Shown in pieces: positions 11,727-27,732 of a stretch of 64,000 nt of DNA. This DNA comes from Deltaproteobacteria bacterium (lineage in GTDB: Bacteria > JAGRBM01 > JAHCIT01), in the NCBI GenBank assembly GCA_026129095.1, contig JAHCIT010000004.1, forward strand, positions 62,001 to 126,000, given 5' to 3'. The position numbers and the translations under genes are program-made. The notes below the pieces were generated by a model. The model saw nothing but the letters and a program-made list of their open reading frames with translations, did not search any database and was not told the DNA's origin. Within the stretch, counting starts at the first letter, position 1. Each line of letters starts with the position of its first letter.

Positions 11727-12044
11727 ATGGATACCGTCATCCACGGCTCCGGCGCACGGGCGCTCGGAGCGGCCATCATTGGCGGCGCGGTGCAGACGAT
11801 CCGCGACGCCATCGTTTCGCTCTCCGGTGACGCCGCGGACGGACCGGCCCGCCGCCGCCACTACAGGGCCATCGGGCCGGAAATCCGGTGGCTGGCGTCT
11901 GACGGGAACGGGCCGCTCTCCTTCGGCTGGCTGTGCGGGTGCCTCCGGCTGAACGCCGGGATGATCCGCCGCCGCGTCGCCCGCGAGCTTCTGGCCACCG
12001 GCGACCGGGAGCTGGAAAAGCTGGCGAAGCTGCTGGCCGCGTAG
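11727..12044 (+). CDS. Small phage protein preceding terminase
   Basis: A 105-residue protein. The ATG was chosen because of AAAAGGAAA upstream; a longer frame would run through the 61-bp repeat. The central part 'PLSFGWLCGCLRLNAGMIRR' resembles a short helical motif found in small proteins next to terminase genes in GC-rich phages, but no function is known. Position, 13 bp before the large terminase, makes it a candidate small terminase or DNA-binding partner. That is inference from context only. Confidence 0.6.
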   Translation: MDTVIHGSGARALGAAIIGGAVQTIRDAIVSLSGDAADGPARRRHYRAIGPEIRWLASDGNGPLSFGWLCGCLRLNAGMIRRRVARELLATGDRELEKLAKLLAA

Positions 12045-12057
12045 CCCCGAACCTGTC

Positions 12058-13290
12058 ATGGCAGGCGGCCTTCTCGTCCCCCACCCCCGCCAGCGGGAGT
12101 TCCTGGAGGCGGAGGAGAAGTTCGTCCTCTACGCGGGCGGCATCGGCAGCGGAAAGACCACGGCCGGGGCGATCCGGTTCCTCCGGCGCGCCCGGGACCA
12201 CGACACCAACGGCTACATCCTGGCGAACAGCTACGAGCAGCTCGACCGGGTGGCCGTGCAGGTGTTCATGTCGCTGGCCGAGGAGGGAGGCCACTCGCCC
12301 CGGCTCATCCGCAGCCGCCGCTCCATCGAGATGAAGGAGGCGCCGGCGAGGATCTTCTGGCACTCGACCGAGAACTACAACATGCTCCGCGGCGTCGAGA
12401 TGGGCTTCTTCTGGCTGGACGAGGCCCGCGACACGAGCCGCGAGGCGTGGCTGGTGCTCCAGGGAAGGCTCCGCCACCCTGGCGGGCCGCTCCGGGGCGA
12501 CCTTACCTCGACTCCGGCCGGCCTCGACCACTGGCTCTACGAGGAGTTCGCCTCGCCCGAGCGGCGGCCGGACACCCGGCTCGTCACGGGCACCTCCTAC
12601 GACAACGCCCTGAACCTGCCGCCCGGATATCTCGCCGGACTGGAAAATGCCTACACGGGCGACTGGTTCGAGCAGGAGGTGAACGCGCGGTTCGTGAACA
12701 CGGCGAGCGGCCGCTGCTACTACGCCTTCATCCGCCAGCGCCACGCCCATGAACCGGTCGCCCGCCACGCGGACCAGCCGGTGCATGTGGGCGTTGATTT
12801 CAACATCTCGCCCATGTCGGCGGTGTTCGCCCAGCACGACGGGGAAACCATCTCCGTTTTTACCGAATGGTCGGAGCGCAACTCCAACACGCCCCGGCTC
12901 GTTGACGCCATCAGCGCCATCGCCGGAAGCCGGTCGGTGCCCGTGCTGGTCTACCCGGACGCCTCCGGCGCGGCGAGACAGACGGCGGGGGATTCGGACC
13001 ACGCGCTGCTGAAGCGCGCCGGTTTCCAGGTGAACGCGCCCAGGTCCAACCCCGCCCAGCGCGACCGGGTGCAGACGGTGAACGTCGCCTTCAGCCGGAA
13101 CCGGCTCCGGATCGACCCCGCGGCGCGGCAGCTCATCCGCTCGCTGGAGGCGACCCGCTGGAAGGAGGGCAGGAACGAGATCGACAAGGGGCCGTCGGTG
13201 GAGCACCTCTCCGATGCCCTTGGCTACCTCGTCTGCCACCTGGAACCGGTCCTGTTGCCGAGGGTGAGTGTCAGTTCCCACAGGCTTTGA
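12058..13290 (+). CDS. Phage terminase large subunit
   Basis: A 410-residue DNA-packaging motor. The ATPase half has Walker A 'GGIGSGKTTAG' near residues 29-39 and Walker B 'FFWLDEA' near residues 118-124. The RNase H-like nuclease half has acidic residues in 'VGVDFN' (near 244), 'YPDASG' and the C-terminal 'LSDALGY'. Both halves look intact, so packaging and cleavage could still work. TerL drives DNA into the prohead through the portal. The next gene, portal, follows by 10 bp. Identification is firm; packaging mode (headful or site-specific) cannot be deduced. Confidence 0.93.
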   Translation: MAGGLLVPHPRQREFLEAEEKFVLYAGGIGSGKTTAGAIRFLRRARDHDTNGYILANSYEQLDRVAVQVFMSLAEEGGHSPRLIRSRRSIEMKEAPARIFWHSTENYNMLRGVEMGFFWLDEARDTSREAWLVLQGRLRHPGGPLRGDLTSTPAGLDHWLYEEFASPERRPDTRLVTGTSYDNALNLPPGYLAGLENAYTGDWFEQEVNARFVNTASGRCYYAFIRQRHAHEPVARHADQPVHVGVDFNISPMSAVFAQHDGETISVFTEWSERNSNTPRLVDAISAIAGSRSVPVLVYPDASGAARQTAGDSDHALLKRAGFQVNAPRSNPAQRDRVQTVNVAFSRNRLRIDPAARQLIRSLEATRWKEGRNEIDKGPSVEHLSDALGYLVCHLEPVLLPRVSVSSHRL

Positions 13291-13300
13291 GGATATCCGC

Positions 13301-14701
13301 ATGCAGCTTCCCGAACTCCGCACCGCGGCCGACGCCGCGCCCGGCACGCTGAAGGCGCTCGCCGCCCATGTCCGCGCCCGGCGTCCCGCCTCGTACGACC
13401 GGCGGGTGGCCGAGGCGCGGGACTACTGGCACGACCGGTCGGGCGCACACCTGGCCGAGGACATCCGCAGCACCTTCAGCGACGGCGACATCCGGCAGAC
13501 GGTCGAGCGGAGCTCGATCACGCTGCCGCTGGTCCGGCGCGTGGTGCGGAAGCTGGCACGGCTCTACCACGCCGAGCCGGTGCGGCGCGTGCGCCCCGCG
13601 GGCGAATGCGCCGCCCACGAATCCTCAAGGGACGAAACGGAGCGGCGCTACCACCGGATCGCCACGGCGGGTGAACTCACCGAGACGATGCGGATGGCGC
13701 AGGAACTCTACACGCTGACGGGGCTTGTGTATGTCCGGGTTGGCTACGACCGGGGCATCTTCTTTGAAATCCTGGGAGGCGACGAGCTGCTGCCCGCCCT
13801 TCCCCCCGGCGCGCCCGCCAGCGATGTCGGCCGCTACCACTCGCTGCTCGTTCCTCGTACCGGCGGGGACGGCCGCGCCGAATACGTCTTCTGGTCGGAC
13901 CGGCTCCATTTCGTCTTCGACTCCGAGGGCCGCATCACCGGCGACTTCGGCGACCCGGCGCTGGAGAACCCGTACGGCCGGATCCCCTTCGTCCGTATTG
14001 ACGGCCGCACGGGGGAGCTTTTTCCCGATCCGCCGGAGTCCCTCGTCCGGGTGAACCGCGTCCTGAACTTCGCCCTGACGGAGCTTTTCTACACGATCAA
14101 GTTCCAGTGCTTTGGCCAGCCGGTGTGGGTGTCGGACGAGAACGTCGCGCCCGACTTCAAGGTGGGCGTGCAGCACCTCATCCATGTGGTGAAGCGCGAC
14201 CAGGCCGCCGCTGGGGATTTCCGCTTCGAGAGCCCCGACGCGCCGGTCGGGCCCGTGAAGGAAACCGTCTTCGAGGTGGCCCGCCTCGCGGCCCTGCTGG
14301 AGGGCGTCCCCGCCGACACGGTGGACGCACGCGGGCGGGTGGAATCGGGCGTCGCCAGGTGGCTCGCCCAGGCCGACAGCCGCGAGATCCACGCGGCCGA
14401 GGTGGCGAGGTTCCGCACGGCCGAGCGGCACATCTTCCGCACCGTGGCCGCCGTGCTCGCCCACCATGAACCCGGCGCGCCCCTCGGCACGGACCAGTTC
14501 ACCCTGGAGACCGATTTCGCCGATCCCGCCCCGCCGCTCAACCCCGGCGAGGAGCACGGCGCCGACGAGGCGGACCTGCGCCTGGGCGTCATCTCCCCGG
14601 CCGACCTGCTTCGCCGCCGCAACCCCGACCTCGCCCGTCTCTCCGAGGAGGAGATCCTCTCCCTGTGGAGACGGAACCGGGAACTGGCGCGGGAACCCTA
14701 A
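13301..14701 (+). CDS. Phage portal protein
   Basis: About 466 residues. The ATG at 13301 is preferred because GAGGA precedes it by eight bases; a GTG at 13268 would overlap the terminase gene. Sequence character ('RRVVRKLARLYHAEPVR', then a beta-rich wing and a helical stem containing 'VRVNRVLNFALTELF') fits SPP1 gp6-type portals, and length and position between TerL and capsid agree. The portal dodecamer forms the DNA entry channel of the head. The C-terminal part is acidic and helical as in other portals. Confidence 0.82.
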   Translation: MQLPELRTAADAAPGTLKALAAHVRARRPASYDRRVAEARDYWHDRSGAHLAEDIRSTFSDGDIRQTVERSSITLPLVRRVVRKLARLYHAEPVRRVRPAGECAAHESSRDETERRYHRIATAGELTETMRMAQELYTLTGLVYVRVGYDRGIFFEILGGDELLPALPPGAPASDVGRYHSLLVPRTGGDGRAEYVFWSDRLHFVFDSEGRITGDFGDPALENPYGRIPFVRIDGRTGELFPDPPESLVRVNRVLNFALTELFYTIKFQCFGQPVWVSDENVAPDFKVGVQHLIHVVKRDQAAAGDFRFESPDAPVGPVKETVFEVARLAALLEGVPADTVDARGRVESGVARWLAQADSREIHAAEVARFRTAERHIFRTVAAVLAHHEPGAPLGTDQFTLETDFADPAPPLNPGEEHGADEADLRLGVISPADLLRRRNPDLARLSEEEILSLWRRNRELAREP

Positions 14702-14712: not shown

Positions 14713-15150
14713 ATGCCAGACGACCCACTTGCCGGCCCCGGCGAAACGCCGGATGCCGCAGTCCCCGCGGGAACGGATACTCCCGCCGCCCCGCAGGACG
14801 GATGGGAAGAAGCCGCAAGGTCGCTTCTCGGTTCGCGCATCGCCCGGCTGCCGCAGCCCATGCAGGAGCTGGCGAAGTCGCTTCCCGGGGGGACCGCGCC
14901 CGGCGCGCTCGTGAAGTTCGTCGAGCAGGCCGAGGCGGCCGCTGCCGCCCTCGCTTCCGGCCCTCCGGTCCCGAAATCCACCGACGCACGGCGGACCGGG
15001 CACGGCGACGCGGGCCGGGCCGACGAACAGCTCTGGAACGAACTGATGCAGGACGGCCGGCGCGCGCTCGAACTCAGGCGCCGGCGGCCGGACCTCTATG
15101 ACGCCCTCCGCCAGCGGTTTGGCGGACGGCCCCGGACACGAAAGGACTGA
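14713..15150 (+). CDS. Putative capsid scaffold / head assembly protein
   Basis: A 145-residue protein with a Pro/Ala-rich N-terminus and a helical, charged C-terminus ('LELRRRRPDLYDALRQRF'). AGGAG lies just upstream of the ATG. It sits exactly where scaffolding or protease genes sit, between portal and capsid. No Ser-His protease motif is visible, so scaffold is the better guess. No homologous family was recognised. Confidence 0.5.
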   Translation: MPDDPLAGPGETPDAAVPAGTDTPAAPQDGWEEAARSLLGSRIARLPQPMQELAKSLPGGTAPGALVKFVEQAEAAAAALASGPPVPKSTDARRTGHGDAGRADEQLWNELMQDGRRALELRRRRPDLYDALRQRFGGRPRTRKD

Positions 15151-15157: not shown

Positions 15158-16114
15158 ATGGCTTCCACGAAACTTTCCGACATCGTTGACCCGCAGGTGC
15201 TCGCCGACCAGGTGAGTGCCCTCTTCCCCGGACGCATCCAGCTGGAAGCGTGCGGCGCTGTTCTGGCCGAGACCAACGGCGATATCGCCTCTGGCGGAAC
15301 CCGCATCACGATCCCGCGCTGGAAGCGCGGCGGCGACATGGAACCCCTCTCGGACTCGGCGCCCCTGGGCATCGAGAAGGTGGACAGCGTGACCGAGCAG
15401 GGCGTGGTCGTCCGGCGCGGCAAGGCGTTCGGCGTCCACGACTTCGCCCGGCTGGTGTCACTGGACGACCCGCAGACCGAAATCGCCCGGCAGATCGCGG
15501 CGATCTTCGCCCGGCACCTGGACTCGACCCTGATTCACGTTCTGGAGGGGGCCATCCCCCCGGCCAACCGCCGGAACGTGGCCGTCACGAGCGGCTCGGC
15601 CATGAGGATCGGCAAGAGCAGCGTGCTGGACGCCATGTTCGCGCTCGGCGACAACGAGAGCGACCTCACGGCCGCCGTGATGCATTCAAAGGTGTTCAAG
15701 GACGCCTACGACCAGGGGCTCATCGTCTACTCGGACGTGCCAGCCGACGCCGTGAACCCCGGCGTCCGCTCCGGCCTCAAGGCGACGATCTTCGGCCGCC
15801 CGGTCTACGTGAGCGACCGGGTGCCGGTGGACACCACGGTACCGGACTACTTCGCCTACACGACCTTCTTCCTGGGGAGCCGGGCCCTGTACCTGGGCTA
15901 CCAGCGGGAGCTGACCATCGAGACCGACCGCGACGTGCTCACCAAGGAGGACATCATCTCCTTCGATGCCCACTTCGTCCCGCACCTGTTCGGCGTCGGC
16001 TGGACGGACGCGGCGAACAACCCCGGCAACGACGCCCTTGCCGACCCGGACAACTGGGACCTGAAGGCCGAGGATGCCAGGTCGGTGCGGGCGGTGGCGA
16101 TGGTGACGAACTGA
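15158..16114 (+). CDS. Phage major capsid protein
   Basis: A 318-residue protein. It shows the organisation of HK97-fold coat proteins: a helical N-arm ('LADQVSALFPGRIQLEACG'), an extended beta segment ('GTRITIPRWKRGGDMEPLSD'), a spine helix ('IARQIAAIFARHLDSTLI') and a P-domain ('AVMHSKVFKDAYDQGL', 'FGRPVYVSDRVP'). The ATG at 15158 is preceded by AAAGGA. No maturation protease gene or obvious cleavable delta domain was seen. The stop is only 9 bp from the stop of the convergent histidine kinase gene, where the cluster's first plus-strand block ends. Confidence 0.88.
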   Translation: MASTKLSDIVDPQVLADQVSALFPGRIQLEACGAVLAETNGDIASGGTRITIPRWKRGGDMEPLSDSAPLGIEKVDSVTEQGVVVRRGKAFGVHDFARLVSLDDPQTEIARQIAAIFARHLDSTLIHVLEGAIPPANRRNVAVTSGSAMRIGKSSVLDAMFALGDNESDLTAAVMHSKVFKDAYDQGLIVYSDVPADAVNPGVRSGLKATIFGRPVYVSDRVPVDTTVPDYFAYTTFFLGSRALYLGYQRELTIETDRDVLTKEDIISFDAHFVPHLFGVGWTDAANNPGNDALADPDNWDLKAEDARSVRAVAMVTN

Positions 16115-16123: not shown

Positions 16124-17488
16124 TCAGGCGGCCGGAACCCGCACCCGCACGGTGGTTCCACGGCCGGGCGCGCTGTCGAACGTGACGTTGCCGCCCTGCC
16201 GGGTGACGAGCTCATGGACGATGTAGAGCCCCAGCCCCGCGCCGTGACCCTCGCCGGCCTTCTGGAGCGTGGCGAACGGCTTGAAGAGCGACGCATGGAG
16301 CTGTTCGGGGATTCCGCGGCCGGTATCGGCCACCTCGATCTCGATCTCGTTTCCGCGAGGGCGGATCGTGAGCCGGACCGGCTCGCGGCTTTCCGACTGG
16401 GCGGCGTTCTCCAGCAGGTTCATCACGGCGGTCGTGACCGGCCTGCCGTCCACGAGCCGCACTGCCGCCTCCGGACCGCAGGCGATCTCCACGGCGGGGT
16501 ATTTCCTGCGGACATCCGTGAGGACCGACTCCACGGGAATCTGCGACGGGGCCTTTTCCAGGTGCTCGGCCAGCTCGTACAGACGGTCCACGATCGCCGC
16601 GGCGCGCCCGTGGCCCTTCAGCGCGAGCTGGAGCATGCCCAGGGCGGCCTGCCTGTCGTCGGCCGAGAGCGTCGCCGACTGCCCGATCTCGTCGGTGAGC
16701 GTCTGGAGGATGGAGCCGCTCGATGCCAGCGGATTCCTCAGCTCATGGGCCGCGCCCGTCACCAGCGAGCCCAGCGAGGCGAGCGCCTCGGCACGGATGA
16801 GCTGGTCCTTGGAGTCCTTCAGCAGGACGTAGGCCTCGGCGAGCGCCTCCTCCCGGTCGCGCCACCGCTTGACGATATAGACCGAGAGCACGATGCACTC
16901 GATCATGATGAACAGGAACGCGCCGCCCATCGCGACAAGCCAGGCGCCCGAAAGGCGGCCGTCCTCATAAGGGGCGCCGGCCATCAGCGGCGCGTAGGGG
17001 ATGTAACCGAACCGCTCGGCGATGGTCGTCCCGACAATGACGAGCGAGCCCACCGTCACGCCGATCATGGCATCGCGGATCTCGAACAGGAGCATGGCGA
17101 CGAAGGTTCCGCCCACGAACACCAGCCCGGCATAGGGACTCGTGAGCGGACCGGTACTGTAGGAACCGTAACCGAAAGTGCCGGAGTAGAAGACGATGGT
17201 CGCCAGCACGATGGCGTGGTTCTGCGGATCGCGCTTCCGGATGGCGAAACCCCAGATGAGGATGGCCGCCCAGACGATGTTCATGCTGAGCAGCGTCTTC
17301 ATGAACAGGGCGAGATACTCCCGGTTCATGTAGGCCGCGCCCTCCGCATCGCTGAGCAGAGGGGTGAAACTGAGGACGACGAAGAGGATGAACACCGCCG
17401 TCGTCCCGGCGATGAGCAGCGACTTGTCCACCGGACTCCAGTCCAGAAGGTGCATCAGCTGGCTGATGATCCGGTCCTGCCAGCGCAT
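16124..17488 (-). CDS. Membrane histidine kinase inside the phage cluster
   Basis: About 454 residues. Roughly six hydrophobic segments with a short loop 'GYIPYAPLM' are followed by a coiled region, a HisKA domain with 'GAAHELRNPLASSG', and a HATPase_c domain with N-box 'NLLENAAQS', G1 'ADTGRGIPEQL' and G2 'GAGLGLYIV'. It should autophosphorylate on the H-box His and pass phosphate to a response regulator. The start is uncertain: ATG 17488 was chosen, GTG 17542 is possible. It lies on the strand opposite to the capsid and connector genes. A kinase with the same loop motif is at 31777-33174. It is a host-type gene, not a virion protein. Confidence 0.88.
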   Translation of the reverse strand: MRWQDRIISQLMHLLDWSPVDKSLLIAGTTAVFILFVVLSFTPLLSDAEGAAYMNREYLALFMKTLLSMNIVWAAILIWGFAIRKRDPQNHAIVLATIVFYSGTFGYGSYSTGPLTSPYAGLVFVGGTFVAMLLFEIRDAMIGVTVGSLVIVGTTIAERFGYIPYAPLMAGAPYEDGRLSGAWLVAMGGAFLFIMIECIVLSVYIVKRWRDREEALAEAYVLLKDSKDQLIRAEALASLGSLVTGAAHELRNPLASSGSILQTLTDEIGQSATLSADDRQAALGMLQLALKGHGRAAAIVDRLYELAEHLEKAPSQIPVESVLTDVRRKYPAVEIACGPEAAVRLVDGRPVTTAVMNLLENAAQSESREPVRLTIRPRGNEIEIEVADTGRGIPEQLHASLFKPFATLQKAGEGHGAGLGLYIVHELVTRQGGNVTFDSAPGRGTTVRVRVPAA

Positions 17489-17571
17489 GTTCTTGCCGGT
17501 TGCTTCCAAAACGGTTCCTTTGCCTGCGGCGGAGTATGCCACGGGGCAAAGACGAAAAGGAAACCCTTTAA

Positions 17572-17955
17572 ATGGCGATAACGACCGAAACGATCGAAAG
17601 CCGCGACCCGGCGGTACGGGGCCGCCATCCGGCGGGAGCGGCGGACCACTCGGCCCAGATCACGGCCGCGCTCACGGAGCTGCGTCTGGACCTCGCGGCG
17701 AGGGGGCTCGCCTGGCAGGAGTTCGAGGGCGTGGACGGCGCGGGTGTCTATGACGGGACGAACCCGGAGCTGGACGCGCTGCACGAACTCATCGCCCTCG
17801 CCTTCATCCACCGCTCGCTCGCCGAAACCGCCGACGACCGGTGGGAGCGCGCCGCCCGCCACTACGAGCGGTGCTACCGCGAGCGCGTGGACACGCAGGA
17901 GTTCGCCACCTACCACGGCGCCGCCCACCAGCGGACGGCGCGGATTTTCCTGTAA
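17572..17955 (+). CDS. Putative head-tail connector (adaptor) protein
   Basis: A 127-residue, mostly helical acidic protein ('ELRLDLAARGLAWQEF', 'ALHELIALAFIHRSLAE', 'RAARHYERCYRER'). AAAGGAAA lies upstream of the ATG. Size, helicity and position between capsid and tail tube fit gp6/gp15-type adaptors that dock on the portal. No family was recognised by sequence, so the call rests on gene order. It starts the second plus-strand block and diverges from the kinase gene. Confidence 0.5.
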   Translation: MAITTETIESRDPAVRGRHPAGAADHSAQITAALTELRLDLAARGLAWQEFEGVDGAGVYDGTNPELDALHELIALAFIHRSLAETADDRWERAARHYERCYRERVDTQEFATYHGAAHQRTARIFL

Positions 17956-17994: not shown

Positions 17995-18513
17995 ATGTCA
18001 TCCCAGACCGTGAAAAACGGATTCGCCGCGCTTGGCGTGACGGCGACATACAAGTCGGTGAACCTCGGCCCCACAGTGGGCGGCGCATCGCTCCGGATCG
18101 AGCGCGAGCTTGTCGAGATCCTCACCGACGAGCGCGGGCTGACGCCCGTGGACTACCTCACGCACGGCCTGAAGAAGGTGGACGTGACCTTAAGCCTCGC
18201 CCGCTGGTCGCTCATGAACTTCCAGGCGGCGTTTCCGGAGTTCACGCTCACGGGCTCTGGCGACGACCGCAAGCTCGACATCCGCGCCGACACCGGCACC
18301 TCGCTGGAGTCGAAGGCGGGGCAGCTCGTGCTGCATCCGGTGTCGCTCCTGGACGGCGACCGGACCTTCGATCTCACCTTCTGGAAGGCGGCCGTCATCT
18401 CGCCGCCGGAGCTGGCCTACCGGGGCGAGCAGGCCCCGGTGGAACTCACCTTCCGGGCGCTGCCCGATTCCAGCGGCCTGCTGCTCACGATCGGCGATCC
18501 GTCAGTCACCTGA
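17995..18513 (+). CDS. Putative major tail tube protein
   Basis: A 172-residue, beta-rich protein with 'ELVEILTDERGLTPVDYLTH' near the N-terminus and a C-terminal 'VELTFRALPDSSGLLLTI'. The pattern 'QAPVELTFRALPD' near the end is characteristic of tail tube subunits of siphophages and tailed particles. AAGGAAC precedes the ATG. It follows the connector and precedes the tail-assembly chaperone, the usual place for the tube gene. No tail sheath gene was seen, so the tail is probably non-contractile. Confidence 0.68.
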   Translation: MSSQTVKNGFAALGVTATYKSVNLGPTVGGASLRIERELVEILTDERGLTPVDYLTHGLKKVDVTLSLARWSLMNFQAAFPEFTLTGSGDDRKLDIRADTGTSLESKAGQLVLHPVSLLDGDRTFDLTFWKAAVISPPELAYRGEQAPVELTFRALPDSSGLLLTIGDPSVT

Positions 18514-18569: not shown

Positions 18570-18863
18570 ATGTCCCATCACGATCTTTCAGCCCTGCGGA
18601 GCCGCCTCACGGTGAAGCTCCGCCAGAAGACCTACAGTTTCGACGAGCCCACGCTCGCGCAGATCGCCGCGCTGGTGGAAGCGAGCCGCCCCGGATCGCA
18701 GCCCGTGGAGATGGCACTCCAGTTCCGCCACGCCCTCCGGGGCATGGTTCCGGAACTGACCGACGGAGATGCCGACTACCTGCTGACGCCGCGGGTATTC
18801 GAGGCGTTCCTCAAGATCCTCACCGGGGAGACCCGCGAAGACCCTCCCCGCGGGCGGAACTGA
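18570..18863 (+). CDS. Tail assembly chaperone, short form (gpG-like)
   Basis: A 97-residue protein. AAGGAGGAAACCC precedes the ATG, a strong ribosome site. It is helical with moderate charge ('LTVKLRQKTYSFDEPTLAQI'), and lies between the tail tube and tape-measure candidate, where lambda G-type chaperones lie. The -1 frame is open through the end of this gene and continues to 19222 without a start codon of its own, matching the G / G-T arrangement. The chaperone would coat the tape-measure protein during tail assembly. The call is from gene order and frame structure. Confidence 0.6.
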   Translation: MSHHDLSALRSRLTVKLRQKTYSFDEPTLAQIAALVEASRPGSQPVEMALQFRHALRGMVPELTDGDADYLLTPRVFEAFLKILTGETREDPPRGRN

Positions 18864-19222
18864 ACGCGCTGGCCGGGATCGCCGCCAGGGCCGCCTTCAG
18901 GCTCGGCCTTTCGCCCGGTGAAACGCTGTCGCTTCCGCCCTCGTTCCTGAAAGCCCTGCTCGCCCGTGCCGACGAGCTTCACGCGGCCTCCCGGATGGAA
19001 TGGCTCGACATCCTCGCCGCCGCCGCGCTGGAACCCTGGCAGACGGGCAGCGGGCAGTCGGCCTACCGGCGGCTCCGGACCGTGCTCGCCAGCCGGTGCC
19101 CAGGCGACCCGGATACCGCCGCGCCGTCCACCGCCGGCGAGCTCATCGCCCTCTATGCCGCCGCCGTCCACCCCGGCCGGCTGGCCGAACTCGCGGGGGA
19201 GCTGAATCCATGTCCCACCTGA
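18842..19222 (+). CDS. Probable -1 frameshift extension of tail chaperone (T part)
   Basis: About 126 codons open in the -1 frame relative to the short chaperone. There is no ATG, GTG or TTG before codon 52 (ATG 18995, no ribosome site), so independent translation is unlikely. A G-T fusion made by programmed -1 slippage explains it. The best slip site by eye is C-CCU-CCC at 18842-18848, though it is not a canonical heptamer. The product is helical ('LPPSFLKALLARADELH', 'GELIALYAAAVHPGRLAE'). The end overlaps the next gene by 13 bp. Confidence 0.55.
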   Translation, partial: PSPRAELNALAGIAARAAFRLGLSPGETLSLPPSFLKALLARADELHAASRMEWLDILAAAALEPWQTGSGQSAYRRLRTVLASRCPGDPDTAAPSTAGELIALYAAAVHPGRLAELAGELNPCPT

Positions 19223-19632
19223 CGGAACTCACGGATCTCGTACAGACGGTGCTGGGGACGCTCGTTCCCGGCGACGGGCGTCTTGTGCCCGAACGCGGGG
19301 GCCTCACCCAGTCGGGCCGGACCTTCGACGTGCGGCCCGTGGGCGCCACCGTGCAGTCCTGGGAACGGCCGGGCGATGCGGCGAAGGCGAACCTCGGCGA
19401 AAGATTCGTCATCGAGATCCGGTTCGTCATGGCCGCGCAGGCCTCGGCAGTCCGGACGGCCGCCGTGGCCCACGCCTCGAATATCCTCTCCGGGCTCGCC
19501 GACACGGGGAACCTCCCTCCCGGCGGCACCCTCTCGCAGGTGATCCCCGGCGCGCCGGTCATCCGGACGAAGACGCCGCCCGGCGGCCCGGCCACGGTGA
19601 CGCTGGAACTGCCCGTGACGGTGTATTCGTAA
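19210..19632 (+). CDS. Putative tail terminator / completion protein
   Basis: A 140-residue alpha/beta protein with the pattern of gpU-like tail terminators: an N-terminal helix ('LTELTDLVQTVLG'), a central strand 'RFVIEIRFVMAAQASAV', helix, and a final strand pair 'ATVTLELPVTVYS'. Such proteins cap the tube and join it to the head. In most phages the gene precedes the tube gene, while here it lies after the chaperone, so the assignment is tentative. Confidence 0.42.
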   Translation: MSHLTELTDLVQTVLGTLVPGDGRLVPERGGLTQSGRTFDVRPVGATVQSWERPGDAAKANLGERFVIEIRFVMAAQASAVRTAAVAHASNILSGLADTGNLPPGGTLSQVIPGAPVIRTKTPPGGPATVTLELPVTVYS

Positions 19633-19667
19633 GTGACCACACCCCGGCAGGAAACCACACCCCCTGA

Positions 19668-19695
19668 CCCCCTCTCCGCAGACGCAGAGAGGGGG
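19668..19695. repeat. REP-like hairpin, imperfect copy
   Basis: CCCCCTCTC (19668-19676) and GAGAGGGGG (19687-19695) form 9-bp arms around a 10-base loop. It belongs to the family found at 11448-11674. Confidence 0.75.
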
Positions 19696-19745: not shown

Positions 19746-19807
19746 ATGGGGGGAGTGGTTTCCTGAAGGCGGAGAGTTTTTTCAGGTGAAGCAGAACGGA
19801 AACCCCC

Positions 19808-20491
19808 ATGCCCGACTCCCCTGAAACCTTTTTGGACCTTTCGCGGTCCGGCGATGCGGCCGGAGGCGTGGAAAGCCTGCGTGACCGCCTCGACCCGGAG
19901 GCGCTCCGCGAGGCGGCGCAGCTCATGGCCGAAATCCGGCGCGAAACCGTGCGGGCGTCGGACGTGCTCGTCAACCAGTTCCAGCGGCAGGCAGTGAGCC
20001 CCATCCGGCCGCTCGTGCAGGCGACGGCCGGTGCAATCGAGCAGATGTTCCGGGGACTGGTGGACGGCTCGGTGCGGAGCGGGCGTGCGTTCGCCGCCGT
20101 CATGCTGGACGCCGTGGGCAAGTTCGCCACCGCCCTCGGCCAGAGCATGATCGCCACGGCGAAGGTGCTCCAGGCGCTCATGGTGCTGAACATCCCGGCG
20201 ACGTTCGCCGGGGGGTTCGCCCTCATCGCCATCGGCTCGGCCCTGTCGGCCTTCGCGGCCGGGCTCGGCGGAAGCGCCGGTACGGCCACCAGTCCCGCAG
20301 CCCCGCCGGAGCCCGCGCCTGAAACACCGGACCGGCGCCTTCCGGCCGAACTCACCGTCAATCTCGTGAACAACGGCGGCGTCATCGGCATCGACAGCGT
20401 GCGCTCGTTCATCGTGGATACCATCCGCGACGCCATCGGCGACGACCGGCTGGTGGTGATCCAGGGGGCGTCCGGCATCCGGGCGATCTGA
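19808..20491 (+). CDS. Short tape-measure-like protein
   Basis: A 227-residue protein. The N-terminal half is helical ('LREAAQLMAEIRRETVRAS'), the centre is a hydrophobic Ala/Gly-rich segment (about residues 95-160, 'GGFALIAIGSALSAFAAGL'), and a Pro-rich linker leads to a small C-terminal domain. Hydrophobic helices of this type mark tape-measure C-terminal regions, and the gene lies directly after the chaperone region and before the tail tip. Typical tape measures have 700-1500 residues. At about 0.15 nm per residue this one would specify a tail near 35 nm, close to gene transfer agent tails. Confidence 0.55.
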   Translation: MPDSPETFLDLSRSGDAAGGVESLRDRLDPEALREAAQLMAEIRRETVRASDVLVNQFQRQAVSPIRPLVQATAGAIEQMFRGLVDGSVRSGRAFAAVMLDAVGKFATALGQSMIATAKVLQALMVLNIPATFAGGFALIAIGSALSAFAAGLGGSAGTATSPAAPPEPAPETPDRRLPAELTVNLVNNGGVIGIDSVRSFIVDTIRDAIGDDRLVVIQGASGIRAI

Positions 20492-20492: not shown

Positions 20493-22040
20493 ATGCCAGT
20501 CCTCGCCAGCCGTCAGGCCCTGCTCGTTCCGTCCGTGGAACTGGAAGGGGAGCTGCGCTTCCGTCTGGACGGCGAGGACTGCACGGCGGTCCTCGCCCGT
20601 GCCTTTTATTCGCCGCCATCGCTGGCCGCCGCACTCCGGGCGGCCATGCGCGCCGCGCTGCCGGTTCTCGAAGACGAAGCGGCCTGCGGCTTCCGGCTCC
20701 ATTTCATTCTCGCGGCGGCACTTTCCGGCGGCGAGGCGGTGAACACCGGCGGCGCGCTCGCCTGGACGAACACGTCCGCGGGGCTTCCACTCACGATCCT
20801 CCACTCCAGTCCGCTGTCGCGGATCGAAACCCCGGACGGCTGGCCGCTGGTCGCGGGCGACGGGGCGCACGCCGATCTCGCCGTCGCGCCGGGAAACCGG
20901 GTCCAGTGGACCCATGCCGGAGACGCCGTGCCGAATCCCGTCCAGCCGTGCCAGTTCGTCTGGCCCCAGCTCCGGGGCCGCGCGCGGCTTTCGGAGCGGC
21001 GGATCACGGGCGACTTTTCCACACGCACCCACGCCCAGGCCGAGGACGGCCGCCTGTGGCCGGTGGCCAGGGGCGCACAGCGCCGGTGGGAGCTTTCCTT
21101 CGGGCCGCTCTCCGCCGCCGGCTGGCGGGCACAAGGCTGGGACCGGACCACCGGAAGTGGCGGCGCGCTGGAACAGGGCTCGATGATGACCTTCTTTCCC
21201 GATACTGGCCGCGAGACGGCCCTCCCCGTGCGGCCGCTGAACCGCACGATCGAGGTGGAACGGACCGTGCCGGGCTACCGGTCGGTGAAGCTCCAGCTCG
21301 CGGCGCAACCTGTACCCGATGGCGGCGGTTTCACCTACGGCCGGGAGTTTTCGGTCGAGACCGTCAGCGGCTCCCTGACGGAAACCTTCGGCGGCGACAC
21401 CGCCCACTTCAGCGCCGATGGCGGCGCGCTGAAACAGTCCGGCGCCACGCCCTCGCCGGCCTCGGTGTTCGTCCGGCTATGGCCGCTTGATGAAAGCCTC
21501 CACAGCTCGAACCTGCTGGCGAGCGTGAAGCTGTGGCGCACGTTCCCGTTCGTGGCCAGTGGCAGCGGATGGGAGGCCGGCATCGCGCTCTCGCACGCCA
21601 GCGGCAAGGCGGGCGTGGCCGTCACCGCGTCCGAAGGCCCCGCGCACCGGGAGCTCCGGGCCTGGGCCATTCACACCGACGGCAGCAAAAGCCCGCCCGT
21701 GACGCTCGGCGTCCTGCGCGGGAACATCCCCCGCTCGGAGGGGATGCAGGAGCGGCCGGACCGGAGGTTCATCGCCCGGTTCTGGTACGTGCCGCTCGGC
21801 AGCGGCGCGGCGCTGACTCGGGTGCGTGCCTGGTACAACGGCGAGGGCCCCTTCGACGGACAAGTCATGCACGGTTTCGACACCGGCGGCGGCGACCTCG
21901 CCTGGATGCCGGTATGCTCGAACGGAACCTCGCCAGCCTCGACGACCTGGTGGAAGGCGTTCCGGTTTCACGAGGACGCCTCCGGCTGGCTCGGCCCGGA
22001 CGGGCTGCCGCTCCTGCTGGGAAGCGTGGAGAATATATAG
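20493..22040 (+). CDS. Putative distal tail / baseplate protein
   Basis: A 515-residue, beta-rich, Trp-rich protein ('RRWELSFGPLSAAGWRAQGW') starting one base after the tape-measure stop. The segment around residues 190-240 resembles distal tail proteins that attach the tip to the tube. The second half (about 260-500) looks like carbohydrate-binding beta-sandwich domains ('WGLSF'-like strands are absent, but 'VKLWRTFPFVASGSGWEAGI' and 'RFIARFWYVPLGSGAAL' alternate regularly). No named family was recognised. It ends the second plus-strand block. Confidence 0.5.
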   Translation: MPVLASRQALLVPSVELEGELRFRLDGEDCTAVLARAFYSPPSLAAALRAAMRAALPVLEDEAACGFRLHFILAAALSGGEAVNTGGALAWTNTSAGLPLTILHSSPLSRIETPDGWPLVAGDGAHADLAVAPGNRVQWTHAGDAVPNPVQPCQFVWPQLRGRARLSERRITGDFSTRTHAQAEDGRLWPVARGAQRRWELSFGPLSAAGWRAQGWDRTTGSGGALEQGSMMTFFPDTGRETALPVRPLNRTIEVERTVPGYRSVKLQLAAQPVPDGGGFTYGREFSVETVSGSLTETFGGDTAHFSADGGALKQSGATPSPASVFVRLWPLDESLHSSNLLASVKLWRTFPFVASGSGWEAGIALSHASGKAGVAVTASEGPAHRELRAWAIHTDGSKSPPVTLGVLRGNIPRSEGMQERPDRRFIARFWYVPLGSGAALTRVRAWYNGEGPFDGQVMHGFDTGGGDLAWMPVCSNGTSPASTTWWKAFRFHEDASGWLGPDGLPLLLGSVENI

Positions 22041-22137: not shown

Positions 22138-22371
22138 TTACTTGGTCTTGGCCGCTTCCTTCTCGGCCTTCTTCTCGGCCTTCTCTTCTTTCTTCGCATC
22201 CTTGCTCTCGGCGGATGCCGGGGCGGCAGGGGTCGCCGGAGTGGCCGGCTTGCCTGCTTCGGCCGCCGGGGTGGCGGGCGTGGCCGGCTTGGCCGCTTCA
22301 GCCGCCGAGGCGATCAGGGGCGTGCCCGCGATCATTGCCGAGAGGAGTGCTGCTTCGATGGTGCGTTTCAT
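22138..22371 (-). CDS. Small exported Ala/Pro/Lys-rich protein
   Basis: A 77-residue protein: signal peptide ('MKRTIEAALLSAMIAGTPLI', cleavage near 'ASA-AEA'), then a repeat 'KPATPATPAA' occurring twice, then a charged tail of alternating Lys, Glu and Ala. AAGGAGT sits eight bases before the ATG. Low-complexity periplasmic tails of this kind can bind polyanions or peptidoglycan, but no function is known. It lies downstream of the CarF gene on the same strand, separated by 253 bp, in the host-type cassette that interrupts the phage tail genes. Confidence 0.65.
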   Translation of the reverse strand: MKRTIEAALLSAMIAGTPLIASAAEAAKPATPATPAAEAGKPATPATPAAPASAESKDAKKEEKAEKKAEKEAAKTK

Positions 22372-22624: not shown

Positions 22625-23386
22625 TCAGGTTTCAGCCGGTGACGGCCGTTCTCTTGTTTCACTGCCCGAAACCCATGCCGCATCGTCCTCGCCCGCTTTC
22701 AGGCCGATGGTCCGCCGGAGAATCCGTTCCAGCACGATGAAGAACCGGGTAGTAGCCAGCACCGGGTTCAGCCACCCGACGGTGATGCAGTAGTAGGTAT
22801 CGAACGGCACGGTGTGGTGGATCTGGTGGTGGTCTGGCGGGAGGATGAGCCGCCACTTCTGGAGAAGCCGGACGAAACCGGGAACGGTGTCCGCATGGGC
22901 CCACTTGTGAAACTGGTTCGTGGCGAAGACGAACAGGCAGAGCCAGAGCGTGTGCGCCGTGGCGGCGAGGCCGAGGAGTCCCGCGCCTTCGGCCGGGAAC
23001 GACAGGAGCACTCCCGTCTGGAGCGGCACCGACACGATGCAGTTCGCACCGTTCGTCTCGATGAAGTCGTGCCGGGTAATACCCTTGGGGTCCACATGAT
23101 GCTCGCGGAACGGGCGGACGAAGTTCGGGCCGAAAACCGGCGTGTTCACCGTGCCGTAGCGGTCGGCCATCCAGTGAACGAAGCCGGAGACGAAATCGGC
23201 CAGCAGGTAGCCGCCGGGAACGGCCAGGATGAACACCGCCCACGCGGCGGGGCTGTCAATCCAGCGGGCGAGCCCCAGCGAGCGCGAGAACAGCGCCGCC
23301 GACAGCAGGAGGCACCCGGCGATGCCGGCGATCTCCAGCATCCGGTGGACAGGTGAATAGCTGTAGCTGCGCGTTTTCCCTCGCAT
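22625..23386 (-). CDS. carF: Plasmanylethanolamine desaturase (CarF/TMEM189/PEDS1 family)
   Basis: A 253-residue membrane enzyme. It carries the family's histidine signature in order: 'DFVSGFVHWMAD' (His71), 'REHHVDPKGITRHDFIETNG' (His96, 97, 106), 'NQFHKWAH' (His160, 164) and 'HHQIHH' (186-191), then 'YYCITVGWLNP'. The match to human TMEM189 and Myxococcus CarF is close across these segments. The family makes the vinyl-ether bond of plasmalogens from alkyl-ether lipids using a di-iron centre. In Myxococcus this links to singlet-oxygen signalling. Here it lies inside a phage tail module beside a lipocalin gene. Ether-lipid synthesis genes are not in this window. Confidence 0.93.
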   Translation of the reverse strand: MRGKTRSYSYSPVHRMLEIAGIAGCLLLSAALFSRSLGLARWIDSPAAWAVFILAVPGGYLLADFVSGFVHWMADRYGTVNTPVFGPNFVRPFREHHVDPKGITRHDFIETNGANCIVSVPLQTGVLLSFPAEGAGLLGLAATAHTLWLCLFVFATNQFHKWAHADTVPGFVRLLQKWRLILPPDHHQIHHTVPFDTYYCITVGWLNPVLATTRFFIVLERILRRTIGLKAGEDDAAWVSGSETRERPSPAET

Positions 23387-23480
23387 GACCCTGGCAAAAA
23401 CCCCCGGTTGACCCTACCAGCCGGGACCATCTTCCGTCTGTTACGGAGATCACACCACCCCGATGCCCCGAAAGCGGGCC

Positions 23481-24020
23481 TCAGGGAGTGCCGATGCTCA
23501 CAAGCTGCGGCGTGCGCCGAAGGCGCGTGACATCGTAATCCTGCCCGCGGAGGCGGCCGAGGATGCCCTCGTAGACATCCGTGTCCAGAACTGGCGTGCG
23601 CGACAGCACCCACAGGTAGTTCCGGCCCGGATGGCCGACCACCGCCCAACGGTAGTCCGGGTCCAGGTCGATCACCCAGTAGCTGCCGTAAAAGGGCCAG
23701 AAGAAGGTCACCTTCAGCTTCGCGTTGGTCGCCGTGTCCACGACGCGGGCCGTCCCGCGGACGCTGCGGACGGGGCCGTCGAGGGTTTTCTCGCGGCACT
23801 GGTTGAAGACGCCGATCCGGCCGTCCGGCTCCAGCGTGTAGGTCGCCATCGAGGCGACGCAGCCTTTCTGGAAACGGTTGGGGAAGCTGGCGATCTCGTA
23901 CCAGTCGCCGAGATACCGCTGGAGGTCCACCTTCTCGACCGTGTGCAGCGGCTTGCCCGCGGCGCAGCCGCCGGGAAGCAGGGCGATGATCGAAGCGAGG
24001 AGCCGGATGAGGGTTCGCAT
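23481..24020 (-). CDS. blc: Outer-membrane lipocalin (Blc-like lipoprotein)
   Basis: A 179-residue lipoprotein. The chosen ATG gives a signal peptide ending in 'LPGGC' (Cys19); a longer frame lacks a signal. The lipocalin signature 'YLGDWYEIASFPNRFQ' follows, with a later 'WVIDLDPDYRWAVVGHP' strand region and the C-terminal helix typical of Blc/apolipoprotein D. Blc proteins bind fatty acids or lysophospholipids in the envelope under stress. The gene is upstream of carF on the same strand, 94 bp apart, so a lipid-related operon is likely. Its start is 15 bp from the divergent start of the tail hub-like gene. Confidence 0.92.
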   Translation of the reverse strand: MRTLIRLLASIIALLPGGCAAGKPLHTVEKVDLQRYLGDWYEIASFPNRFQKGCVASMATYTLEPDGRIGVFNQCREKTLDGPVRSVRGTARVVDTATNAKLKVTFFWPFYGSYWVIDLDPDYRWAVVGHPGRNYLWVLSRTPVLDTDVYEGILGRLRGQDYDVTRLRRTPQLVSIGTP

Positions 24021-24035: not shown

Positions 24036-25928
24036 ATGACCGCCTTCGACGATGCCATCGCCCGGCCGGAACTCCAGCCGGTGTGGGTCGTGGAGTTTCA
24101 CGCCCCCCGCCGTGCCATCGCCGCGCTCCCAGCCCACGGCGATGAACTCATCTGTCTTGAAGAAGGCGAGAGTTTCGGCGGCTTCCCGGCCACCGGCTAC
24201 CTGCTCATCGGCAATGACGAGAAGACGGGAGAAATCGTCCGCTACGTCGGGCGGAGCCCGGACGGCACGGCGATCACGGGACTGGTCCGCGGGCGGTTCC
24301 GGTCGGCGGCGCGGGAATGGCCCGGCGGAACGGTGGTGAGGGAGTGGGGCCTCGGCCGCGTCTTTTCGACGCTCCCCGTGGCGGCCTTCCCGGACGCGCT
24401 CCCCATCCTGCTGGACCCTGCCCTCAGCCCCCGGACGCTCGACGAAGAGCGGCTCACCTCGGCGGTGGGTTCGTTCACCTTCCGGCTGGCCGACATGGAC
24501 AGCTTTACCAGCACACTGATCGCGCTCACTCCGCTCCGGCGGCGGGGCGTGACGCTATGGCTGGGATTTCCCGGCATCACGGAGCCGGAAGGGTTCCGCG
24601 CCGTCGCACGCGGCCGGGTGCAGGAGGTGACGAGCGACGACGGCGGCGCGATCTGGCGGTTCCAGTGCCGGAGCCTGCTGGCCGACCTCAAGGACCAGCG
24701 GCTGTTCCTGGACCGCCGCTCGCGCCTCACCGGAGCCGTGACGGGCGTCCAGACGTCGCTGCCGGTCGCCGACACCGGAAGATATCTCCCCAATACCGGC
24801 GGCCTCGTCCGCCACGTCCGGGTCGGCGACGAGATTGTCTCCTACGCCGGGCGGAGTACCGCCAGCGGCGCGGGGAACCTCACCGGCTGCGTGCGCGGGT
24901 TGTTCCAGTCCGTCGCCGCCGCCCACGAAGCCGGAGACGAGGCGGTGCAGGTTTATGAACTCTCCGGGCACCCGCTCACGATCCTGCTGAACATCCTCGC
25001 CACGACCGAAACCGGCGGCAGTGGCCCCTACGACGACCCGGCCTTCCGGGGCGGAGCGGCGCTGGGACTTGATCCGGACCTGGTGAACACCGGGCAGATC
25101 GAGCAGACGCGGGACTCGCTGCTGCCTGCCCTTTTCGCCCGGTTCCTCATTGACCGGGAAACCGACGACGCGAAGCGGTGGATCGAGGAGGAACTCCTGC
25201 AAGCCTGCGGCGCGGCGCTCATCGAGGAGTCCGGCGGACGGCTATCGGTCCGGTTCATGGGGCCGCCCTCGCCCGCCGAGACGCCGGCCGTGCTGGACGC
25301 CGCGGCCCGGATCCCCGCAGGGGAGCGCATGGACCTGGGGCTCGGCCGAATCCGCAACGCGATCGAGATCCGCTACTCACGCGATCCGGTGGACGGCGTT
25401 TGTCTCGAACGGCTTCTCTACCTGGACGCCGATTCGGTGAGCCGCCACGGCGCGGCCCCAAAGCTCACGCTGGAGTTCGGCGGCCTGCACGGACCCTGGT
25501 CGCCGCTCGGCGATCACGGCGGCGACGCCCACGCGCTCAGGCTGGCCTCGCGGCTCGCCCTCCAGCTTTCGCATCCCCGGCCGCGCCTCCGGACCGGCGC
25601 GGCCTTCGGCCTTCTCACGGCCGGCATTGGCGACACGGCGGTGCTCGCCCACGGCCGCCTGCCTCCCGGCCAGCCGGACGAATCGCTCCCGCCGGAACGG
25701 GCGGCAAAAGACAGCCGGGCGCGGCTGGTGGAGATCGTCAGCACGCACCTCGACATGCAGACGGGCATGGCGGTTCTCGACGTGCGCGAGTCGCCCTTCG
25801 AGATGCTCCGGTACGCCTTCATTCACCGGAACGGCGCTCCGGATTTCGATGACGCGGACGTTCTGGACCGCCAGTACGCCCACCACGCCGGGGACAGCGG
25901 CCCGGACTATGCCATCTACCCCGCCTGA
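24036..25928 (+). CDS. Large phage tail-tip (hub-like) protein with internal duplication
   Basis: A 630-residue protein that begins the third plus-strand block. Two copies of a beta-domain are visible at about residues 51-103 ('GEIVRYVGRS', 'ITGLVRGRF') and 251-308 ('DEIVSYAGRS', 'LTGCVRGLF'). Between them lies a hub-like region (140-225, 'GSFTFRLADMDSF', 'VARGRVQEVTSDDG'). The C-terminal half is helical/beta mixed. The organisation suggests a tail hub that docks fibres, comparable in place to GTA hub or megatron proteins. No peptidase or lysozyme motif was seen. GGGAGCAAGG precedes the ATG. Confidence 0.55.
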   Translation: MTAFDDAIARPELQPVWVVEFHAPRRAIAALPAHGDELICLEEGESFGGFPATGYLLIGNDEKTGEIVRYVGRSPDGTAITGLVRGRFRSAAREWPGGTVVREWGLGRVFSTLPVAAFPDALPILLDPALSPRTLDEERLTSAVGSFTFRLADMDSFTSTLIALTPLRRRGVTLWLGFPGITEPEGFRAVARGRVQEVTSDDGGAIWRFQCRSLLADLKDQRLFLDRRSRLTGAVTGVQTSLPVADTGRYLPNTGGLVRHVRVGDEIVSYAGRSTASGAGNLTGCVRGLFQSVAAAHEAGDEAVQVYELSGHPLTILLNILATTETGGSGPYDDPAFRGGAALGLDPDLVNTGQIEQTRDSLLPALFARFLIDRETDDAKRWIEEELLQACGAALIEESGGRLSVRFMGPPSPAETPAVLDAAARIPAGERMDLGLGRIRNAIEIRYSRDPVDGVCLERLLYLDADSVSRHGAAPKLTLEFGGLHGPWSPLGDHGGDAHALRLASRLALQLSHPRPRLRTGAAFGLLTAGIGDTAVLAHGRLPPGQPDESLPPERAAKDSRARLVEIVSTHLDMQTGMAVLDVRESPFEMLRYAFIHRNGAPDFDDADVLDRQYAHHAGDSGPDYAIYPA

Positions 25929-25949: not shown

Positions 25950-26441
25950 ATGCCCGCCTATACCGCCATCACCGACGCCACGCTCACCGCCGGGCGGCCC
26001 ATCACCGAGACGCTGATGCGGACGATCCGGGACAACCTGGACCACCTCAAGAACGCGACGGACGGGCTCACCAGCAACGTGACCGTGACGGGCGGCCCCG
26101 GCACTCCGGCGACCGCGAGCACCTCCTATGTGACCGTCACGCGCAACCGGCTTTATCTCGAAGCCGGGACGTACACCTTCCGGGGACATGCCGAGATCAT
26201 GGTCCTCGACGGGAACTGCACCACCGACACGGCCCATGTCCGGCTGAGAATTGGCGGCGAGACGTTTCTTGAGGAAACGTCGGCCGCCTGCGCCGCTTTC
26301 GATGCCGTGAGCGGAGGGACCGCCGGGATCGCCGTCGCCACGGGCGGCTGGACCGACCTCGAAGTGCAACTGAAGACATCGAACGCCGCCAAACAGGCCG
26401 CCCACCGCCACATCACGGTGTCGTGGCTGAAGACGGCATAA
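25950..26441 (+). CDS. Putative tail fibre / tip protein
   Basis: A 163-residue protein. The N-terminus 'ITDATLTAGRPITETLMRTI' followed by 'RDNLDHL' matches a common opening of phage fibre and tip proteins ('D..L..G.P.T..L...IRDN'). The rest is Gly/Thr-rich beta structure with regularly spaced strands. CTGAAGGAGT lies upstream. It probably forms trimeric surface fibres. Confidence 0.55.
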   Translation: MPAYTAITDATLTAGRPITETLMRTIRDNLDHLKNATDGLTSNVTVTGGPGTPATASTSYVTVTRNRLYLEAGTYTFRGHAEIMVLDGNCTTDTAHVRLRIGGETFLEETSAACAAFDAVSGGTAGIAVATGGWTDLEVQLKTSNAAKQAAHRHITVSWLKTA

Positions 26442-26454
26442 GGAGAAACATGCC

Positions 26455-26844
26455 ATGCCCGAAACCAACATTGACCCCGACGTCCGGATCGAGGCCGCCT
26501 CGTTCACCGCCGACGGCGTGTACGTGGTCCGCGATCTGGACGGGCGGCCCCTGTCGTGGACGTTCAACGGCACGCTTCCCGGCCTTGGCTTCGGCGGCGG
26601 CACGATCGCTGTCGAGGCGACGAACCTCTCGGCCGCCGACACCGGCCTGTCCGGCGGGGACTGGAGCGCCGACACCGGAAACGGAATCTGGGAGCCGGTC
26701 ATGGCCGAGGACGCCCCCATCCTCATCACCGGCTCGGCGACCGGCTGGATCGACGCCCCGTTCCGGTTCGTCCGGTTCCGGCTGTCGGGGTCGAGCGAGC
26801 CGTCAATCCTGGGCCGTGTGCTGGCCGGTGTCCGCGGCCTTTAG
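26455..26844 (+). CDS. Small beta-rich phage structural protein
   Basis: A 129-residue protein with a Gly/Thr/Ala-rich beta pattern ('GRPLSWTFNGTLPGLGFGGG', 'PFRFVRFRLSG'). AAGGAGA precedes the ATG, and 13 bp separate it from the previous gene. No family is recognised. The composition and place among fibre genes suggest a minor tip or fibre-associated protein. Confidence 0.45.
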   Translation: MPETNIDPDVRIEAASFTADGVYVVRDLDGRPLSWTFNGTLPGLGFGGGTIAVEATNLSAADTGLSGGDWSADTGNGIWEPVMAEDAPILITGSATGWIDAPFRFVRFRLSGSSEPSILGRVLAGVRGL

Positions 26845-26872
26845 GGATTTCCATACTTCAAGGAGACTGTTC

Positions 26873-27442
26873 ATGCCCGTTCCAGGACGAAAATCACCAG
26901 GCATCCCGGCCTTCCAGAAGGGCCAGCCAAACGGCGTCGCCCCGCTGGATGGCGGCGCAAAGGTTCCGGTGGAGAACCTGCCGGACGATACCGGCGGCAG
27001 CGCCACCTACGTCCCCTGGTATCCGTTCATCGCTTCGACCGCCCACGCCTTCAGCGTTGCGGGCAGCACGCCCACGGCGCGGAACAGCTCGCTCGTCGTG
27101 GACAGGGCCGGCAGTTACCGGCCGAAGCTCATGGTCCGGGTGTCGGCCGTCACCGGCAGCCCGACGCTGGTCCGGGTGACGGCGAACGTGGCGCTGTACG
27201 CGGTGAAACCGGACGGCACGAGCCGGACGCTCTACGCACAAAATGACGAGATCGCCGTCCACGACAATGGCAGCACTTACGCCACGAACGACTTCGCGGT
27301 GCTCACGGGCGGGGCGATTTCGCTCAACGCCGGAGAGACAATCATGCAGAACGGAAACTCCAACCCGTTCAGGTTCCTCTGCAACGGGAGCGGGACGCAG
27401 GTGGATGCCTTCTCGTCGGCCTTTTATCTGGAGAAGCAGTGA
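26873..27442 (+). CDS. Tail fibre protein with 'LDGGAKVP' repeat motif
   Basis: A 189-residue protein. 'NGVAPLDGGAKVPVENLPDD' near residues 22-41 is the short motif ('G.A.LD..GKVP...LP') that recurs in phage tail fibres and collar regions. The remainder is beta-rich and Ser/Thr/Asn-rich, as in receptor-binding tips. AAGGAGA precedes the ATG. The stop overlaps the next start (ATGA). Confidence 0.65.
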   Translation: MPVPGRKSPGIPAFQKGQPNGVAPLDGGAKVPVENLPDDTGGSATYVPWYPFIASTAHAFSVAGSTPTARNSSLVVDRAGSYRPKLMVRVSAVTGSPTLVRVTANVALYAVKPDGTSRTLYAQNDEIAVHDNGSTYATNDFAVLTGGAISLNAGETIMQNGNSNPFRFLCNGSGTQVDAFSSAFYLEKQ

Positions 27443-27732
27443 TGGATGATCTCGCCCGGACCGGAGTCGAGCTGGTCGTCACCACGGGAGCGGTGCTGAT
27501 CGGGGTCCTCAAGATGCTGCCGCCGCTGCTCCTGCGCGCCGTGGAGACCCAGATCGGGCGGCAGCCCGCCGCCCAGGGCCCCGAAGCCCTCACCCCCGTG
27601 GTCGCCTCGATGGACGGCCTGCGCTCGGAAATGGGCGCGCTCCGCCACGAACTGCGTGACCTGCGCGAAACCCTGACCGAGCACCGGATGGACACCGCCG
27701 AGCGGCTCACCCGGCTCGAATCCCTCAAGTGA
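27442..27732 (+). CDS. Single-TM coiled-coil protein, holin- or spanin-like position
   Basis: A 96-residue protein with one hydrophobic segment (about residues 10-30, 'VELVVTTGAVLIGVLKMLPP') and a C-terminal heptad-patterned helix ('LRSEMGALRHELRDLRETL'). It overlaps the fibre gene by one base (ATGA) and is the last gene of the tail block. Membrane-plus-coil proteins at the end of tail modules are often holins or accessory lysis proteins, but no endolysin is nearby, so this is only a possibility. Confidence 0.45.
   Translation: MDDLARTGVELVVTTGAVLIGVLKMLPPLLLRAVETQIGRQPAAQGPEALTPVVASMDGLRSEMGALRHELRDLRETLTEHRMDTAERLTRLESLK

Follow-up and report, generated by a model that had tools for sequence, protein, structure and literature searches.

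Few lineages have gene transfer agents (GTAs) with experimental support. Their true prevalence is open, since searches by similarity to known GTAs recover chiefly those of Alphaproteobacteria (PMC11841831). The definition of these viriforms comprises six features: particle proteins derived from caudoviricetes, full endogenisation, mostly vertical inheritance and co-diversification with the host, mostly random host DNA inside the particle, a head that cannot hold the whole GTA genome, and delivery of the packaged DNA to other cells (PMC9662315). RcGTA and the other alphaproteobacterial type I GTAs are encoded by a compact head-tail cluster that has neither an integrase gene nor genes for replication; the RcGTA tape measure is short (~216 aa; PMC7296036) and its capsid has the HK97 fold. 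The structural cluster of BhGTA (VSH-1) of Brachyspira, which represents the Brachygtaviriformidae, measures 16.3 kb, includes an endolysin, has a gene order that is shuffled between species, and encodes proteins with few phage relatives, TerL being single-copy (PMC9662315). The BhGTA terL lies outside this cluster, and transfer by BhGTA has been demonstrated. FpGTA of Faecalibacterium, a GTA-like element outside the Alphaproteobacteria, is podovirus-like, and its packaged DNA has been observed (PMC12946183). Bacillus phage SPP1 and its relatives are complete phages of 40-50 kb with capsids of the gp13 family and a portal-scaffold-capsid-connector gene order.

The stretch of DNA analysed here (the window; 64,000 nucleotides) corresponds to positions 62001-126000 of C4, a 335-kb contig in a source genome of 3.67 Mb and 23 contigs (G000). 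At 11727-27732 it holds a 16-kb head-tail cluster of 17 intact plus-strand ORFs in siphophage order. The first-pass annotation had described head-tail genes in phage order with open frames over roughly 16 kb, and both the genes and the span are borne out, but the series is interrupted. Inside it, on the minus strand, are four genes of non-phage type, which encode a histidine kinase, a small secreted protein, a lipid desaturase and a lipocalin, so that the phage-derived DNA is nearer 13 kb. They leave the phage genes in three blocks, from the TerS-position ORF to the major capsid protein (MCP), from the connector to the 515-aa gene, and from the tip to the membrane protein. Compared with the earlier gene models, the starts of MCP (15158), tip (24036) and the last fibre (26873) differ, and a scaffold-like gene and the SPP1 type of the capsid had been missed. 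TerL, MCP and tube are firmly assigned by Pfam or PHROG profile matches, TerL passing the cut-offs of both collections; scaffold, connector, chaperone, terminator, tape measure, tip and fibres were assigned by position and by homology to genes at the same positions in a relative, G001. The latter and G000, which belong to different families of the same order, are the two searchable genomes of the phylum. The features are as follows, with percentages giving identity to the G001 homologue.

11727-12044, plus strand: small ORF before terL in the terS position, 105 aa, identity unproven (position only)
12058-13290, plus strand: large terminase TerL, 410 aa (Terminase_6N 6e-15, Terminase_6C 5e-6, phrog_2 9e-38)
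13268-14701, plus strand: portal, 477 aa (40% to the gene that follows terL; phmmer match to a gene of genome G004)
14713-15150, plus strand: scaffold-like protein in the SPP1/S-H1 position, 145 aa (36% to L034:302-901, which lies between portal and MCP in G001; position, composition)
15158-16114, plus strand: MCP of the SPP1 gp13 type, 318 aa (PF20036, Gp13-like, 2e-14; phrog_247 3e-46)
16124-17542, minus strand: inserted membrane histidine kinase, not phage (HATPase_c 1e-25, HisKA)
17572-17955, plus strand: head-tail connector, 127 aa (38% to L034:1982-2437, directly after MCP there)
17995-18513, plus strand: tail tube, 172 aa (phrog_2175 2e-21; 45%)
18570-18863, plus strand: tail assembly chaperone-like protein, 97 aa (31% to L034:3650-3928, same place)
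18995-19222, plus strand: small 75-aa ORF at the place of a second chaperone (position, codon pattern)
19210-19632, plus strand: tail terminator-like protein, 140 aa (weak match, 6e-4, to L034:2458-2943)
19648-19765, no strand: host dispersed palindromic repeat between cluster genes (about a dozen other matching places in G000)
19808-20491, plus strand: short tape measure, 227 aa (C-terminal homology to L034:4256-5107, 1e-6; 31% overall; same place)
20493-22040, plus strand: 515-aa protein in the distal-tail/baseplate position (position)
22138-22371, minus strand: inserted small secreted Ala/Pro/Lys-rich protein, 77 aa (signal-peptide-like start in the sequence)
22625-23386, minus strand: inserted lipid desaturase, not phage (PF10520, 3.5e-56)
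23481-24020, minus strand: inserted lipocalin, a Blc-like lipoprotein (Lipocalin_2 8e-52; lipobox and start)
24036-25928, plus strand: tail tip/hub, 630 aa (36% over the last 324 aa to L035:2-1033; weak tail PHROG)
25950-26441, plus strand: fibre-type protein 1, 163 aa (63% over 32 aa to L035:1188-1739, immediately downstream of the tip)
26455-26844, plus strand: fibre-type protein 2, 129 aa (28% to L035, same place, E 0.002)
26873-27442, plus strand: tail fibre, 189 aa (enclosing ORF with weak matches to minor-tail and tail-fibre PHROGs)
27439-27732, plus strand: one-helix coiled-coil membrane protein, 97 aa, holin-like by position (sequence; coil and TM protein in the same place in G001, L035:3272-3598)
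41686-46499, minus strand: host cta operon of DUF420, SCO1, ABC permease, ABC ATPase, ctaB and ctaA (tblastn of G001 neighbours, Pfam)

TerL carries a Walker A motif (GGIGSGKT), a DE Walker B motif and the RNase-H-like Asp residues; the nuclease aspartates are kept, and these and both Walker motifs are invariant between the window and G001. The MCP profile matched the SPP1 coat protein (PDB 4an5, 2e-36), and no capsid protease was recognised in the cluster. The portal gave no direct matches; its link runs via the G004 homologue, which itself matches portal PHROGs. Neither the longer ORF enclosing the 105-aa ORF (Pfam and PHROG) nor the 515-aa protein (phages and families) yielded a match, and AlphaFold models of the tip (pLDDT 35) and portal (pLDDT 36) were unusable.

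Both searchable genomes of the phylum carry the cluster. The first-pass annotation had proposed a comparison of synteny in related genomes, and in the only other searchable genome the cluster is syntenic and directly flanked by host genes: 12-13 window genes were matched in G001 (fibre 2 and terminator weakly), in the same order except that the terminator precedes the tube there. Three G001 contigs are involved. C59 holds terL (46%) and the start of the portal; C322 the portal end, scaffold, MCP (51%), connector, terminator, tube (45%), chaperones and a 283-aa tape measure; and C136 the tip end (36%), fibres, the coil-TM protein and an M15 endolysin. We infer from homology that C59, C322 and C136 are adjacent and form one locus. 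The cta operon lies directly to its left, and a ferredoxin gene (fdx) and an hscA-like gene directly to its right. With host genes abutting both sides there is no room for phage early genes, and no integrase, repressor or replication gene fits in the G001 cluster, apart from a small HTH-like gene before terL. This gene has a weak, below-cut-off match to MarR_2 and is a candidate TerS at most. Holin-like and M15 endolysin genes stand at the cluster end and were the only temperate-phage genes of the repressor, replication or lysis kind recognised at the G001 locus. Two of its fibre-type proteins (L035:1660-2154 and L035:2162-3250) start with Sec-type signal peptides, which is odd for tail fibres; the window counterparts have none.

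Histidine kinase paralogues are present in both genomes, and the MCP-connector gap of G001 spans 84 bp without a kinase. The desaturase has no match in the G001 genome. As a separate observation, a CarF/TMEM189-type lipid desaturase stands beside a Blc-like lipocalin at 22625-24020, possibly a lipid-handling pair.

In organisation, the closest described system is BhGTA of Brachyspira, compared here by description. The likenesses are cluster size, few phage relatives of the proteins, a single-copy TerL, the endolysin in the cluster (in G001) and shuffled gene order between species, whereas terL lies inside the window cluster and the system is known from its genes alone. With RcGTA and the type I GTAs the locus shares the compact head-tail cluster devoid of integrase and replication genes, the short tape measure, host codon usage and possibly lysis genes elsewhere; it differs in its SPP1 gp13-type capsid, its occurrence in another phylum and its division by host genes. 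The parallel to the Rhodobacter GTA structural cluster drawn in the first-pass annotation does not extend to ancestry. MCP, TerL and tip profiles matched no RcGTA chain in the PDB; with its gp13-type MCP the cluster is not a member of the RcGTA family (Rhodogtaviriformidae), and the agreement in size and order is no sign of descent, because it is generic for siphophage-derived clusters. Descent from the Rhodobacter GTA is thus not supported by the sequences. Like FpGTA, the locus lies outside the Alphaproteobacteria, but its gene set is of siphovirus type. The capsid family, the scaffold before it and the portal-scaffold-capsid-connector order agree with SPP1, whereas the window TerL instead resembles Jersey/Kagunavirus (31%). 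The open-access literature searched contained no description of a comparable cluster that has a capsid of SPP1 type.

Several observations fit a long residence of the cluster better than a recent insertion. Trees pair the window with G001 (support 100/97 for TerL, 97/89 for MCP); the best TerL identities outside the phylum are 31% (phages) and 27% (viral contigs), and those of MCP 38% (viral contigs) and at most 33% (phage records). The six-gene cta operon that abuts the G001 cluster lies 14 kb from the window cluster, in inverted relation; such proximity by chance has a probability of about 1% for one neighbour in a 3.67-Mb genome, and about three neighbours were tested. Of the other G001 neighbours, the apr/cysK block is on contig C10 of the window genome and fdx on the same contig as the cluster, ~87 kb away. 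The presence of the cluster in both genomes, its monophyly and the shared cta neighbourhood are compatible with vertical descent in a sample of two genomes. A host dispersed repeat also lies between cluster genes in G001 (L034:2962-3045; family matches at ~40 places). Cluster genes have a GC3 of 0.879 and host genes one of 0.878, with an RSCU correlation of 0.983, which confirms the earlier statement that GC-ending codons match the host. The genes directly beside the window cluster match host families, e.g., esterase, response regulator and HD domain, and no repressor, replication or lysis modules were found among the flank genes scanned. The integrase that stands beside the structural module of a temperate prophage was sought as tyrosine integrase (PF00589 family only) and found neither on the 335-kb contig C4, as had been stated for the cluster, nor on the three G001 contigs; seven integrase-family genes lie elsewhere in G000. 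The earlier claim of no recognised endolysin also holds for the window cluster, and Peptidase_M15_4 is absent from the whole genome. An adjacent integrase and lysis cassette had been named as signs of an ordinary prophage: no integrase is nearby, but the relative has its M15 endolysin at the cluster end. Most of the checks proposed in the first-pass annotation thus turned out in favour of its reading. Known GTAs, e.g., BhGTA, can also have an endolysin in the cluster (PMC9662315).

Upstream of the window cluster, at 11478-11668, palindromic repeats that belong to the dispersed host family lie nested in one another. Arrays of a similar 10-bp CATC-type unit occur at window 11300-11342 and G001 L006:14548-14615; tandem arrays upstream of terL were considered as a shared operator, and the idea was dropped because they are dispersed at many intergenic places in G001 and the G000 array stands alone. 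Further relatives were sought elsewhere. TerL scans of genome contigs gave no relatives, and the tip had no match in viral contigs. Genomes G024 and G004 (TerL 29-30%) were rejected as carriers, the head-tail set not being shared beyond the portal in G004, and so was viral contig L041 (MCP 38%), in which the other window proteins are unmatched. In another phylum, contig C80 of G041 (~18-35 kb, L086/L087) carries a compact set of head, tail and amidase genes on the minus strand, flanked by host genes. It includes a homologue of the tip (E 3e-9), after which comes a fibre-1-like gene; this is possibly another domesticated cluster.

Two of the defining GTA features are directly visible here, namely caudoviricete-derived particle proteins (the TerL, MCP and tube families) and full endogenisation: the cluster lies between host genes on a chromosomal contig of 335 kb on which no tyrosine integrase was found, and in G001 it has host genes on both sides. 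On the whole the evidence leans, if not strongly, towards an independently domesticated GTA-type cluster in the window. That it is moreover a functional GTA that arose independently and was present in the ancestor of at least an order, with an SPP1-type capsid and intact despite embedded host genes including a histidine kinase, is a more tentative proposition, which we hold to be quite possible rather than probable. Judged from the genes, the cluster was probably inherited vertically and may form particles that contain and transfer DNA. A siphophage structural module with an SPP1-type capsid, a Terminase_6 enzyme and a short non-contractile tail would have become fixed before the two sampled families split, and the host would since have kept it as a GTA-type particle factory. 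Upon a host signal the structural genes would be expressed, scaffold and capsid protein would assemble a head on the portal, and TerL would pump in DNA by a headful-type mechanism, taking whatever DNA it can engage. The DNA taken up would be chromosomal, since the locus encodes nothing for replication or excision by which phage DNA would be presented. A tail of ~30-40 nm, its length set by the 227-aa tape measure, would be joined to the head, cells would be lysed by the M15 endolysin in the relative and by unlinked genes in the window species, and the released particles could deliver their DNA to kin.

The main rival holds that related temperate phages entered each lineage separately and lost integrase, regulation and replication, leaving cryptic remnants, of which that in the window is interrupted by host genes and devoid of lysis functions. 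GTAs and such remnants look alike in sequence (PMC11841831). The four foreign genes, the missing endolysin and the slight difference in tail gene order from G001 agree with this explanation, as does the faster divergence of the cluster: identities to G001 are 46% for TerL, 51% for MCP, 40% for portal, 45% for tube, 38% for connector and 36% for tip, against 55-72% for core proteins (gyrA, phoH, cysK, ctaB, fdx, hscA). Rhodobacterial GTAs evolve slowly, and the lower conservation of the cluster than of core proteins also counts against domestication. Defective prophages would, however, have to have lost the same modules twice while keeping all structural frames, and both would have acquired host repeats between their genes and a place near the same cta operon. 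Moreover, the four foreign genes entered the window cluster while every phage ORF stayed open; at only ~45% protein identity, unselected genes would have lost their frames. We therefore regard two separate remnants as rather unlikely. A domesticated cluster has to be reconciled with some further points. The sample is two genomes, with the G001 cluster on three contigs. No lysis gene was recognised in the window genome, so lysis there needs unlinked genes or the system is decaying, and the inserted minus-strand genes could mark the onset of decay; lysis genes of GTAs are often unlinked to the cluster (PMC11841831). A small head is not assured, because SPP1-type capsids can be large. Finally, a detectable DNA-binding domain is reportedly absent from the small terminases of GTAs (PMC11841831), but the small gene that precedes terL in G001 is HTH-like.

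A functional temperate or satellite-like phage whose early genes escaped recognition or reside in another part of the genome would account for the many phage genes that match no family, and the seven integrase-family genes elsewhere in G000 could serve it; this is quite improbable given the host-family genes directly flanking the window cluster and the host genes that adjoin the G001 cluster at either end. Least probable of all is the non-contractile tail-based device that the first-pass annotation had named beside a GTA-like particle, an empty or tail-like structure that kills or signals, since the tail, tip and fibre genes and the lack of a known cargo would suit it, but TerL with its catalytic motifs, portal, scaffold and capsid, conserved in both genomes, are not needed for such a device.

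A domesticated GTA-type cluster is thus the best-supported reading of the locus. Conserved in two families of an unrelated phylum and detected independently of any RcGTA similarity, it would add an independent domestication that involved a different capsid lineage. A cluster that is conserved between deeply diverged hosts, is flanked by host genes and has host repeats among its own genes offers a practical test for such elements. If the GTA reading is true, this bacterium, whose phylum has scarcely been sampled, may produce virus-like particles that move its own DNA between cells.
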